Position numbers and translations under genes: made by a program. This document shows positions 6,807 to 45,734 of a DNA stretch of 45,734 nucleotides, one piece after another. Numbering within the stretch: the first letter of the stretch is position 1; every line of letters starts with the position of its first letter. The notes below the pieces were generated by a model. The model was not told where the DNA came from, ran no database searches, and was given only the letters and a program-made list of their open reading frames with translations. Where the stretch lies: positions 1 through 45,734 of the forward strand of contig MFNF01000014.1 in assembly GCA_001783715.1 (NCBI GenBank), read 5' to 3'. The stretch is from Candidatus Lambdaproteobacteria bacterium RIFOXYD2_FULL_56_26 (lineage in GTDB: Bacteria > SAR324 > XYD2-FULL-50-16).

Positions 6807-8800
6807 TGGCCCTCGTTGGATTTGGGTTCAGGCAGGTGGGATGCCAAAAGTTCAAGCAGGTCCATGGCCTTGAGCGGTTCGCCCTCCAGCCCCTTGGTGG
6901 CATCTTCCATCATGGTCAGACAGAAGGGGCAGCTGCTGACCACCAGTTCCGCCCCGGTTTTTTGGGCCATGGTGGCCCGTTTGAGGTTGATCCTAGTGCC
7001 CAACTTTTCCTCCGCCAGGATGCGCCCCCCGCCGGCACCGCAACAAAAGCTCTCCAGGCCGTTTTTTTCCATCTCCTTGAACCCCACCCCAACCCCTTCG
7101 AGGAGGTTTCTGGGGGCTTCAAACAGATTGTTGTACCGGCCCAGGTAACAGGAATCATGGTAGGTGACCTTGACCCCGGAGCGGTTGAGCTTAAATTTGT
7201 AATGTTGCCACAGTTGGTCGAGCAACTGGTTGGCGTGCAGCACCTCGGCCTGGAAACCCAGATCCCGATAATCCTGGCCCAAGGTTTGGAAACAGTGAGG
7301 GCAAGCGGTGACGATCTTTTTGACCCCCTTGGACTCAAAGGTGGCGATGTTTTCCTTGGCCAGGGACTGGTAGAGGTATTCGTTGCCCATCTTGCGGGCC
7401 GGTTCGCCGCAGCACCGCTCTTCTTTGCCCAGAATAGCCAATTTGACCCCCGCCGCCTGGGCGAGCTTGACCAGCGCCTTGGCGACCTGCTGGTTCCTGG
7501 GGTCAAAGGAACCATAACAGCCGGTAAAATAAACATAGTCCGCCTCGGCGACCTCCACCAAAGGCAGCCCGGCCGCCCAGTCGCCGCGGGTAGCCTTGGC
7601 GAAGCCCAAGGGGTTGCCGTTGACCTCCAGGTCGTCCATGGCCTTGGCCACTTCCTCCCCAGGGAACTCTCCTTCCATCAACACCATCGCCCGGCGCATC
7701 CCCACGATCTTGGGGATGTGTTCGATCTCGGCAGGGCAAAATTCCATGCAGGCCCGACAGGTGGTACAGGCCCAGAGCGCTTCCTTGCCCACCGCTTCGG
7801 CCAGATTGCCGTTTTTCAGCTCAAAACAAACCTTGCCCAGATCTTCGATCACCTTCATCGGGCTCAGGGGCTTGTTGGTGTTAAAGGCCGGGCAGCGGTC
7901 CTGGCAACGGGCGCAGGAGGTACAGGCATCAGTGTCGTAGATGTCCTTGAACCGCAGGTCCTTGGGGGTTTGGTAACCAAAGGTCTCCTGGGTCTCGTCC
8001 TCCAGGTTCAAGGTCTCCAGGTGCCCTTTGGGTTGGTTTTCAAAAAAGAGGTAGTTGACCGGGGTCAAGACCAAGTGCTTGAGCCGAGAAAAGGGGATTA
8101 AGGCGATGAAGACCATCACCAAAACCATGTGGAAGCTCCAAAGCCCCAGATGCAGCGGCAACACCCACTCGGGGGGCAGCAACTGGAAGTACCGGGCCAG
8201 CACCAACCCCACCGGGCTGTACTGGGAAAGCGGATCGTTGACCCCCAATTCGGTCACCAACATCCTCAGGCCTTCTAAGAAAAATCCGGTCCCTAGGATC
8301 AGAAAGAGGTCCAGGTAAAACACCAGATCCAGAGGCTTTTGGATCATCCCCTGGGCCCCAAAAAAATACCGCCGGGAGAACATCCCGCCGAGCATCAAAA
8401 CCGCCACCAGCCCCGAGAGGTCAAGCGCCAGGGAGTAGGCTTTGTAAAAATCGCCCTCCAAAAACATCCAACCCAAAAGAGGTTCGGTCAGGTCGGTTTG
8501 GATGAAAACCAACACCGTACCCAGGAACAGCACCCCAAAGGACCAAAAGAAGTAGTTGTGCAGCGGTCCGATGCCCGGCTCACGGGCGACCTTTTGTTGG
8601 AACAGCGCCTCGGAAAGAGCCCGGAAGATGCGCCCGCCCACTTGATCCAAAGGCCGCCTTTTTTGCCCCTGGGCATACACCTTGAGCCTGCGGACAAAGC
8701 CCCAGACCATCACCGCCAAACTCAAGACCGCCAACAGGTACATGACCCAAACCGCAAATTGCGGGATGTTCCAGTAGATCACACGGCTGTTTTCCATCAT
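6803..8800 (-). CDS. Membrane-bound Fe-S oxidoreductase, ETF:quinone oxidoreductase (EMO/EtfD) type
   Basis: The N-terminal ~270 residues contain several hydrophobic spans with His residues suited to haem or quinone binding (NarI-like b-type domain). Two ferredoxin-like 4Fe-4S motifs follow, CTSCARCQDRCP and CTTCRACMEFCP. Two heterodisulfide-reductase CCG domains come next: a GCYG...RCCGEPARK...CPHC block and a DSCYLGR...FCCGAGGGR...CPFC block. At 665 residues this fits the family that carries electrons from ETF to (methyl)menaquinone. It is coupled to etfB by an ATGA overlap and lies downstream of an acyl-CoA dehydrogenase, so the route acyl-CoA to ACAD to ETF to quinone is complete in one operon. 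An AGGA Shine-Dalgarno precedes the first ATG. HdrD/GlpC-like proteins share the cluster motifs but lack this ETF context. Confidence 0.88.
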   Translation of the reverse strand: MMENSRVIYWNIPQFAVWVMYLLAVLSLAVMVWGFVRRLKVYAQGQKRRPLDQVGGRIFRALSEALFQQKVAREPGIGPLHNYFFWSFGVLFLGTVLVFIQTDLTEPLLGWMFLEGDFYKAYSLALDLSGLVAVLMLGGMFSRRYFFGAQGMIQKPLDLVFYLDLFLILGTGFFLEGLRMLVTELGVNDPLSQYSPVGLVLARYFQLLPPEWVLPLHLGLWSFHMVLVMVFIALIPFSRLKHLVLTPVNYLFFENQPKGHLETLNLEDETQETFGYQTPKDLRFKDIYDTDACTSCARCQDRCPAFNTNKPLSPMKVIEDLGKVCFELKNGNLAEAVGKEALWACTTCRACMEFCPAEIEHIPKIVGMRRAMVLMEGEFPGEEVAKAMDDLEVNGNPLGFAKATRGDWAAGLPLVEVAEADYVYFTGCYGSFDPRNQQVAKALVKLAQAAGVKLAILGKEERCCGEPARKMGNEYLYQSLAKENIATFESKGVKKIVTACPHCFQTLGQDYRDLGFQAEVLHANQLLDQLWQHYKFKLNRSGVKVTYHDSCYLGRYNNLFEAPRNLLEGVGVGFKEMEKNGLESFCCGAGGGRILAEEKLGTRINLKRATMAQKTGAELVVSSCPFCLTMMEDATKGLEGEPLKAMDLLELLASHLPEPKSNEGQ

Positions 8801-43512: not shown

Positions 43513-44010
43513 GGTTCTGTTGACATTTACCAGAGCCAGATGAGGGTTCCGACGAAGTAGAGGAAGGGCATGCACCGGTCCCCCAGCTTCTCGAAATCTT
43601 GAAAGACCCTGCGGAAGTGTTTTATTTTATTGATGAAGCGCTCCAGAAAATGCCGCTTTATGTGTAGGTTGGGCCTCTTTTTTAAGCTCCGGCGGAGCAA
43701 GGATGAGCCCGCACTATCCTGCTGTCGATCCGTAGGTTCTCCATATCCGAATCGGCGCTGAAATGGGAGAAGAGCAGCTCAACAACTCCGTGAGCTCGCC
43801 ATTGGGCGAACTGTTTGTAAATACAGTTCCATTTCCATACGTCTCAGGTAAAAGCCGCCACTGCCCCCCGCTGCGAGCCTACCACAAGACCCCTTCTAAG
43901 AAAACAGCGGCAGTCCGCTTTGTTGCCGGCGTAGGCACGAGGTTCCTGGGACAAAACCGCATAAATCTTCTCCCACTGGTCGTCTGCAAAGGCTATTGTC
44001 GTAGAAAACC
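43513..44010 (-). mobile_element. Decayed IS5-family insertion sequence
   Basis: On the minus strand, several frames together spell an IS5-type transposase: FADDQWEKIYAVL near 44010, GAVAAF then WKWNCIYKQFAQWRAHGVVELL, then MENLRIDSRIVRAHPCSAGA. After a jump comes the C-terminal KRHFLERFINKIKHFRRVFQDFEKL, ending at a TAA at 43527-43529. Frameshifts and stops break the reading frame. The whole central region with the last two catalytic acids is missing, so it is dead. GGTTCTGTTGACA at 43513-43525 resembles one inverted-repeat end; I see no matching end near 44010. Confidence 0.8.
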
Positions 44011-44133
44011 TGCAAAACAGTTATGATATTAGTTATATGAATGATATAACACAGCAATATCAACACAACCAAGTCAAGTGCCTGATATGTAGCGTTGTCA
44101 TACACCTGAGTTAAATTAGGGGAATATATGACA

Positions 44134-44172
44134 TTTTAAACTATAGTGTCCTAAGGACACTATAGTTTAAAA
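44134..44172. repeat. Palindrome H1 of a four-member array
   Basis: An 18-bp left arm and an 18-bp right arm are exact reverse complements over a TAA centre. The inner part reads GTGTCCTAAGGACAC and the outer arm is TTTTAAACTATA. It lies about 450 bp upstream of the AbiEi-like gene. Confidence 0.9.
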
Positions 44173-44297
44173 AACAAAAAATTTCAACCCCTTTATTTTG
44201 GACTGCTCGAAGGTTATTGTTAATTTTTAGCGGTTCACGCTTGTTTTTCAGACCAAATCCATAGCTAAACTTTAAATACCCCTTGAAATTATTTTTT

Positions 44298-44336
44298 TTT
44301 AATTGTATTGTGTCCTTAGGACACAATACAATTAAA
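44298..44336. repeat. Palindrome H2 of a four-member array
   Basis: Two perfect 18-bp arms flank TTA; the inner part is GTGTCCTTAGGACAC. TTGAAA at 44283-44288 and TATTGT at 44306-44311, 17 nt apart, make a sigma-70-like promoter whose -10 lies in the left arm. Confidence 0.9.
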
Positions 44337-44416
44337 TGAATATGAGTCTGTACAACTCGATTTTTCCAAGTGGTACATTTTTGCTTAGCCTTATCCCCAT
44401 GTGCTTGACATTTGTG

Positions 44417-44459
44417 ATATCTACCATATAGTGTCCTAAGGACACTATATGGTAGATAT
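44417..44459. repeat. Palindrome H3 of a four-member array
   Basis: Two perfect 20-bp arms flank TAA; the inner part is GTGTCCTAAGGACAC. TTGACA at 44405-44410 and TATAGT at 44427-44432, 16 nt apart, form a good promoter with its -10 in the left arm, about 165 bp before the AbiEi ATG. Confidence 0.9.
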
Positions 44460-44552
44460 ACGAGTTTTCCTGGATAATGGACCACTGGGGACTTGGAAAA
44501 GTAGGTTTAAATAAAGCTCAGTTATAAAACCTTGACTAGAATAATTTATTCA

Positions 44553-44591
44553 AACACGATCTATCCGTCCTGAGGACGGATAGATCGTGTT
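44553..44591. repeat. Palindrome H4 of a four-member array, beside the AbiEi ribosome site
   Basis: Two perfect 18-bp arms flank TGA; the inner part is CCGTCCTGAGGACGG. It ends 5 nt before GGAGG and 13 nt before the AbiEi ATG, so it would sit in the mRNA leader. TTGACT at 44532-44537 lies upstream, without a good -10. Confidence 0.9.
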
Positions 44592-44604
44592 GTTTTGGAG
44601 GCCT

Positions 44605-45483
44605 ATGCTCATACGAACAGCGATATCAAGGTACCTGCACGAGTCTGATCGCAATATCATGACCACTCACGACCTGAGCCTTCTCTTATTCACTCTAATG
44701 GAAAAGGGCGAGTATAAAGGGGAAAGACTTAACATCAAAAGAACACCGAATAAAAAGGATATCTCATATTACGTAAGTCAACTTCAATATTATGGAGTCA
44801 TACAAGAGGATGGTGAGCTTAGCAATGTTTACCAAATACTAGCACGCCCAAAAATAAGTTTGGACGAAAAAATTTCCCAGGCAGACCCATTCGCCGTAAT
44901 TTCCTACCTATCTGCAATGCAATATCACGGGATAACAGATCGACGTTCTTCTATTGTTTATTATCGAACCGCAAATTTACAGACAAGGAAAGCTGCTATA
45001 CATGATAGTTTAAGCAAAGCGTTGGGGGAGTATGAATACGATAAGTACATAAAATCTGGTATGCCCAGCATGACAATATTTCACCCTAAAAAGCCGAATT
45101 TAGTCCATTCGGTACACTCGTCAAGTATAGAAAAGCATTATGTACTTTCACACGGGAAAGGGAAAGTCGCATCTATAGCAAGTTGTTTTTTGCAGATGTT
45201 GCAAAAGCCAGAATTTTGCGGAGGAATATACCATGTAATAGATGTCTTTGAGGAATACAGTGAGGTTTACTTAAACTTAATTGTGAACTTCATAGATAGG
45301 CATGGGACCAGTATAGATAAAGTTCGAGCAGGATATATATTGGATGAACGACTAAAGTTGAGACATGAGGTGATAGAAAACTGGGTACAATACTCGCAAA
45401 GGGGAGGCTCGAGAAAGCTAGATTCAACAGCAGCTTATCAGCCAAAATATTCCGAAAAGTGGGCACTTTCAATTAACATTTAA
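44605..45483 (+). CDS. AbiEi-like antitoxin / transcriptional regulator
   Basis: The ATG at 44605 follows GGAGG by 3 nt, giving 292 residues. The N-terminal part is a helical, probably winged-helix region. The family-like core is SQADPFAVISYLSAMQYHGITDRRSSIVYY, and later VASIASCFLQMLQKPEFCGGIYHVIDVF, both matching the AbiEi pattern of a 'Y-S-S-A-L-x-x-H-G-L' segment and a 'D-x-L-x-x-P-E-x-x-G-G' segment. AbiEi proteins bind DNA, repress their own operon and counter AbiEii. The gene is AT-rich with many ATA and AGA codons, unlike everything before 43.5 kb, indicating transfer. TAATG overlap couples it to the next gene. Confidence 0.78.
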   Translation: MLIRTAISRYLHESDRNIMTTHDLSLLLFTLMEKGEYKGERLNIKRTPNKKDISYYVSQLQYYGVIQEDGELSNVYQILARPKISLDEKISQADPFAVISYLSAMQYHGITDRRSSIVYYRTANLQTRKAAIHDSLSKALGEYEYDKYIKSGMPSMTIFHPKKPNLVHSVHSSSIEKHYVLSHGKGKVASIASCFLQMLQKPEFCGGIYHVIDVFEEYSEVYLNLIVNFIDRHGTSIDKVRAGYILDERLKLRHEVIENWVQYSQRGGSRKLDSTAAYQPKYSEKWALSINI

Positions 45484-45698
45484 TGAACTTACAAGACCAC
45501 GAAAAAATAATAATCCGCGCTTTTGCAAAGATATCTCCTACGTGCTACTTAAAGGGGGGCACCTGGATGGATATTGCAGACAATTCACCAAGAAGAACGA
45601 AAGATATTGATTATTCGACCACACAGCTTTACACAGAAGGCTTCAATATAGATAATGGGTCAAGACTAGAACAGCGGGTTTTCTCTGATCAGTTTTAG
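45483..45698 (+). CDS. AbiEii-like nucleotidyltransferase toxin, apparently truncated
   Basis: Only 71 residues are open before a TAG, against about 220-320 for intact AbiEii proteins. The visible part has the nucleotidyltransferase start, CYLKGGTWMDIADNSPRRTKDIDYS, including the KGGT loop and the DxD metal site. After the TAG the same frame reads on (KDFVNINLPIVI) to the window edge, so a nonsense mutation or a frameshift is likely rather than a natural end. It overlaps the antitoxin stop by one base (TAATG), the normal AbiE arrangement. Whether a functional copy exists cannot be judged from 36 further bases. Confidence 0.65.
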   Translation: MNLQDHEKIIIRAFAKISPTCYLKGGTWMDIADNSPRRTKDIDYSTTQLYTEGFNIDNGSRLEQRVFSDQF

Positions 45699-45734
45699 AA
45701 GGATTTTGTTAACATCAACCTTCCGATTGTTATA

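Follow-up and report, generated by a model that had tools for sequence, protein, structure and literature searches.

The AbiE locus on contig MFNF01000014.1 of Candidatus Lambdaproteobacteria bacterium RIFOXYD2_FULL_56_26 is preceded by four long palindromes with a common core. It raises the question why their outer arms differ from copy to copy and yet remain exactly self-complementary within each copy. The window, i.e., the whole stretch of 45,734 nucleotides (45.7 kb) that was analyzed, contains the following features at this locus.

44134-44172, no strand: palindrome P1, arms of 19 bp, single-base center A at 44153
44187-44182 and 44164-44159, minus strand: promoter-like boxes of P1, TTGAAA and -10 box TATAGT, spacer 17 bp, directed leftward, away from abiEi
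44298-44336, no strand: palindrome P2, arms of 19 bp, center T at 44317
44283-44288 and 44306-44311, forward strand: promoter-like boxes of P2, TTGAAA and TATTGT, spacer 17 bp, expected start at the dyad
44417-44459, no strand: palindrome P3, arms of 21 bp, center A at 44438
44405-44410 and 44427-44432, forward strand: promoter of P3, TTGACA and TATAGT, spacer 16 bp
44553-44591, no strand: palindrome P4 (proximal), arms of 19 bp, center G at 44572, right end 13 nt upstream of the ATG of abiEi
44532-44537: weak promoter element of P4, TTGACT, 40 nt from the dyad
44605-45483, plus strand: abiEi, ATG start, Shine-Dalgarno-like GGAGG at 44597-44601, PADLOC PDLC02237 (E 1.9e-82)
45483-45698, plus strand: 5' part of abiEii (nucleotidyltransferase toxin gene), PADLOC AbiEii (E 3.6e-8)

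The palindromes and genes of the window

All four palindromes, which an earlier sequence-only reading had placed around 44153, 44317, 44438, and 44572, are real and perfect, and each has one central base. The common core, the differing outer arms, and the absence of a T run after the palindromes were also as described, and only the arm length of 18-20 bp has to be corrected to the measured 19-21 bp. To the description of the copies it has to be added that P1 and P2 are part of a 56-nt inverted duplication (79% complementary, window 44132-44338), with their boxes back-to-back and facing outward. Apart from P1 to P4, the window contains no palindrome, odd or even, with perfect arms of at least 11 bp. 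The sequence GTCCTNAGGAC has four matches in the whole 3.08 Mb genome, all of which are P1 to P4, and a reversed control pattern has three matches. The best promoter in the window is that of P3 (TTGACA-N16-TATAGT), and the boxes of the proximal P4 are poor. The region just upstream (43515-44030) resembles, by eye, a decayed transposase fragment.

The abiEi product is predicted to comprise a winged helix and a C-terminal domain (model pLDDT 92.8), and the best PDB folds for the model are 6y8q (AbiEi) and 1zel (Rv2827c). The Pfam domain AbiEi_1 is present in 8 of 10 relatives, and the window protein itself has no match. On the available tests, i.e., the PADLOC profile and the predicted fold, the locus is assigned to the AbiE family. 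An in-frame stop interrupts abiEii after 71 codons, at a distance of 36 bases from the contig end, and part of the N-terminus is missing (45483-45734); the gene is probably broken or misassembled. In most plasmid relatives abiEii is annotated beside abiEi. Given the P1/P2 duplication, the poor P4 boxes, and the early abiEii stop, the locus of the window may be decaying or rearranged.

Conservation of the palindromes among AbiEi relatives

Such palindromes were found just upstream of abiEi in 84 loci of an AbiEi subfamily (29-41% identity, window included), and the proposed tie between the palindromes and AbiE is thereby strongly supported. A scan of genome contigs provided 80 further relatives. 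With phyla taken from the record titles, the loci belong to at least eight phyla, namely Pseudomonadota, Cyanobacteria, Verrucomicrobiota, Desulfobacterota, Bacteroidota, Acidobacteriota, Nitrospinota, and Dadabacteria. All nine plasmid relatives (about 29-38% identity) contain one or two palindromes immediately upstream of the gene. One or two copies per locus are the rule, so that the four copies of the window are unusual for the family, and in 27 loci one palindrome was found. Three further loci begin at a contig edge. The only loci that have upstream DNA yet no palindrome are L049, L108, and L114, and in all three of them abiEi is damaged: the gene is N-terminally truncated in L108, frameshifted in L114, and in L049 the normal 5' end is lost and there is no ATG. 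The other AbiEi family (AbiEi_4, PF13338) was used as a control, and none of its 28 loci has a palindrome with arms of at least 12 bp.

Palindromes scattered over the genomes and unconnected to AbiE would have spoken against the proposed tie. A search of 30 AbiE genomes (about 150 Mb) for the promoter-type pattern TTGAC-N22..27-GTCCTNAGGAC gave 28 matches, each of which is, by its coordinates, inside an AbiE locus. In 51 other sampled genomes of the window's phylum neither an abiEi gene nor the longer core GTGTCCTNAGGACAC was found, which is consistent with an acquisition of the window locus by transfer. A BLAST comparison of the palindrome region with E. coli genomes and plasmids gave no useful match.

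Several loci deviate from the common form or have additional neighbors. In the cyanobacterial versions (L042 and the Pseudanabaena loci L041, L044, L048, and L106) the core is ATCCTNAGGAT, and the arms of the four Pseudanabaena copies are much longer (32-34 bp) and extend up to the -35 box. Both palindromes of L071, an Akkermansia MAG, are imperfect, and one of them holds the only G:T pair of the whole set. In the plasmid loci L028, L305, L310, and similar ones, a gene for a WGR-domain protein and an integrase/recombinase gene are frequent neighbors of abiEi. In some enteric plasmids abiEii is followed by a third gene, which is annotated as a PP2C-like phosphatase in L031.

Viral contigs were scanned for four 15-base cores and for the promoter pattern. 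Nearly all matches were chance matches with arms mostly not exceeding 9 bp, and no match of the promoter pattern had long arms. Two intergenic palindromes on viral contigs (L164:5490 and L171:231) share the core, with arm lengths of 19 and 18 bp, respectively, and are without AbiEi. Their neighbors are phage structural genes and an early gene of unassigned function, and they may be chance terminators or decoys. Near position 7957 of the viral contig L015, tandem repeats built on AGTGTCCTAAAGACACT surround a core match and have an iteron-like appearance.

Pairing versus sequence of the arms

Pairing was counted in 137 distinct palindromes at 18 positions per arm, i.e., for 2466 pairs. Watson-Crick pairs account for 2460 of them, and the remainder are one G:T pair and five other mismatches. 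The strictly conserved sequence is confined to the core, with the fixed tip GTCC-TNA-GGAC, and most positions from 6 onward show each of the four pair types. Pairing at positions 6-18 was 99.7% over a set of 46 arm clusters, compared to 33% after shuffling (maximum 42%). Beyond position 12, the arms of two copies of one locus are 29.6% identical, compared to a background of 26.9% for copies of different loci, so that a half-site sequence common to the copies of one locus, which is a trait of known AbiEi operators, was not found. The arms are free in sequence and bound to exact self-complementarity. That pairing itself is maintained had been suggested from the window, and it is now strongly supported by arms that are almost always perfect and freely variable in sequence in 84 loci. 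A protein that reads the sequence would conserve the bases of the arms or ignore them, but it would not keep them complementary, and therefore an operator recognized by its linear sequence fails to explain the arms. A CRISPR-like memory in the arms was also considered, and it was dropped because relatives carry identical arms.

Concerted evolution of the arms

The evolution of the arms was followed in the closest pairs of loci. Only 1 of 134 flank bases differs between L098 and L100, yet the palindrome has a T:A to C:G change on both sides and an A/T flip of the center. A center flip of the same kind accompanies a single difference in 129 flank bases between L080 and L082, and L185 and L186 differ by an A:T to T:A change on both sides. 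Three paired changes and one center change were found among plasmids of Sulfitobacter and Pseudosulfitobacter. The rate of paired arm changes is similar to that of changes in the flanks, and intermediates with a change on one side only are hardly ever found. Most center changes are A/T swaps, matching the expected outcome of an inversion of the center. Within a clonal set of five near-identical plasmids there are no center flips, and therefore template switching is not very fast.

Published work gives homogenization of arms together with inversion of the spacer as the signature of template switching from one arm of an inverted repeat to the other (PMC8604942; also PMC8794818). The both-sided arm changes and the A/T flips are the signature of template switching at a DNA hairpin. 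The concerted changes thus indicate that the hairpin forms in nature, with the qualification that assembly or library artifacts at the center base are possible in draft genomes. Template switching by itself might suffice to maintain perfect arms, with no selection on folding.

Promoter geometry

In 52 of the 84 loci a TTGAC -35 box lies to the left of the proximal dyad at a distance of 33-38 nt, which is exactly 33 nt in 28 of them, and there is one match at the mirrored position. The left arm of the proximal palindrome contains an AT-rich, -10-like sequence at the correct spacing. Because the box has a fixed distance to the dyad, the transcription start, which is predicted from box spacing, coincides with the dyad, and the palindromes are thus putative promoters. 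The same boxes occur at distal palindromes, and 24 of these face away from abiEi and 12 face towards it. Behind the outward-facing distal promoters no conserved gene was found, only clade-specific matches. Terminators were dropped in view of the missing T run and the position of the predicted start site. A single-strand promoter for conjugation was dropped, as the start would fall into the loop.

The sequence-only reading had named an operator array for AbiEi as one possible function. This is the best functional reading because each proximal palindrome is located on a sigma70-type promoter with the predicted start at its dyad, but an operator that is read as sequence leaves the arms unexplained.

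A proposed promoter-operator that may fold

In the reading that we favor, with a rough probability of 55%, the palindromes are promoter-operators of the AbiE operon, AbiEi reads the tip and autoregulates the operon, and the arms are selected for folding of the DNA into a hairpin or cruciform. The action of AbiEi at the tip is proposed by analogy with Streptococcus agalactiae and Mycobacterium tuberculosis, and the cruciform switch and the selection of the arms for folding are what we infer. Each proximal palindrome straddles a sigma70-type promoter with the dyad on the predicted start site and the -10 box inside the left arm, and AbiEi would recognize the symmetrical tip and autoregulate this promoter. 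Under negative supercoiling the DNA would form a cruciform, and its opening would occur at the start site, which RNA polymerase melts. Folding would lock the -10 box into the hairpin and turn the promoter off, and AbiEi, attached to both identical tips or to the core, would either hold or release this state. A mismatch arising in one arm would be copied away by hairpin template switching, which would also flip the central base.

A rough energy estimate with textbook constants indicates that arms of 18-26 bp extrude at a sigma of about -0.03 to -0.046, which is within the physiological range, and that with one mismatch the threshold becomes about -0.04 to -0.065. Three points speak against the favored reading: the GC-rich center should slow down spontaneous extrusion, the distal copies face either way, an arrangement that no simple repression model calls for, and the window's own proximal copy has a poor promoter.

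Alternative explanations

The main rival is an ordinary B-form operator. AbiEi would then bind nothing but the dyad core GTCCTNAGGAC, and the arms would be incidental, kept perfect by template switching that is unusually frequent since transcription opens the dyad. This rival agrees with the observed concerted arm changes and center flips, with the ability of template switching to homogenize arms and invert spacers by itself (PMC8604942), and with the core being the only strictly conserved sequence. However, arms have been retained in all 84 loci. Their length is about 15-34 bp, most often 23, and there is not a single core-only locus. At other places, the arms next to GTCC-type cores mostly do not exceed 9 bp, and outside the elements the fetched loci contain few long, perfect, nearly loopless palindromes. 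The constant presence of the arms and their narrow length range argue against this rival, which we regard as rather unlikely. An operator of the Streptococcus type, with two 23-bp half-sites that are read as sequence by AbiEi monomers, would have the same position at the promoter, a half-site length equal to the commonest arm length, and the same protein fold. But in S. agalactiae the outer 11 bp form a perfect repeat and the 23-bp repeats have four mismatches (PMC3985639), while here the outer arms are not conserved between copies presumably served by one protein, yet they are perfectly paired, and such an operator is very unlikely.

Any RNA that spans a palindrome would fold, and a message from a forward distal promoter, P3 in the window, would include the proximal hairpin. 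An RNA hairpin in the 5' leader of abiEi, as a binding site of AbiEi or a substrate of RNase III, is conceivable on this ground, but the -35/-10 spacing sets the start at the dyad, and RNA from that promoter would contain only the right arm, i.e., half a palindrome. In addition, only one palindrome was found in 27 loci, 24 distal promoter-like elements face away from the gene, and the single G:T among all pairs counted fits an RNA poorly. Rfam gave no match near the gathering score, only chance hits. The structured, antitoxin-like RNA of the sequence-only reading is thus disfavored, and we consider an RNA hairpin very unlikely. Its further suggestion, hairpins for an unknown nuclease or recombinase, has found nothing pointing in this direction. 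Loci are often on plasmids and near recombinase genes, which would suit such a substrate or a mobile palindromic element, but the position at the abiEi promoter is fixed, the genome of the window has no other copies, the 30 AbiE genomes have no promoter-type copies elsewhere, and the viral pattern matches have no long arms. The probability of this explanation is minimal.

Comparison with known systems

The favored promoter-operator has relatives among characterized systems. In S. agalactiae, AbiEi binds two inverted repeats at its own promoter and thereby represses it (PMC3985639), and the promoter of M. tuberculosis Rv2827c, which exhibits type IV toxin-antitoxin autoregulation, has been used as an analogy for the action of AbiEi (PMC7319586). 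In these operators as well as in the palindromes, a gene for a protein with AbiEi fold is beside its own promoter, the promoter is overlapped by inverted repeats of about 23 bp, and more than one repeat pair is possible; the overlap of repeats and promoter is evident here from the position of the TTGAC box. However, the known operators have a conserved outer half-site and mismatches, whereas here the central part is conserved and the outer arms are free yet perfectly complementary around a single central base. In contrast to the known operators, two palindromes can be about 80-150 bp apart and may drive divergent promoters.

An engineered E. coli promoter was repressed by cruciform extrusion (Horwitz and Loeb, 1988, as cited in PMC6060812). 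It also had a palindrome within the promoter, the folding of which is expected to stop transcription; it was synthetic, whereas the palindromes described here are natural, widespread, bound to one gene family, and have a conserved tip. On the textbook-constant estimate, they have what a cruciform-regulated promoter needs, a perfect palindrome on the promoter with arms that could be extruded at physiological superhelicity. Arm homogenization and spacer inversion are shared with quasipalindromic hotspots of template switching, but these represent scattered mutation events, whereas here nearly all loci of one gene family have the perfect state. The kind of operator is thus already known. In the open-access full-text papers searched we found neither the core sequence nor AbiE palindromes of such a kind, nor a sequence-free form with the dyad at the start, although a prior description may exist.

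Significance

The combination of free letters and almost unbroken self-complementarity in 84 loci from at least eight phyla points to the folding of the DNA itself as the target of selection, and such selection can rarely be demonstrated in bacteria. Concerted arm evolution and center inversion are visible in near-identical genomes. We put forward, tentatively and with some doubt, that the palindromes may be a family of cruciform-switch promoters across phyla, in which supercoiling-driven folding of the start site would gate a toxin-antitoxin/phage-defense operon and the antitoxin would read hairpin tips, not the linear sequence. The loci represent a series of natural variants that is ready for testing cruciform control of promoters in vivo, and they offer a test of how the AbiE defense operon is switched. 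If the proposed folding is true, changes of DNA topology or replication, e.g., upon phage infection, would switch the AbiE operon.
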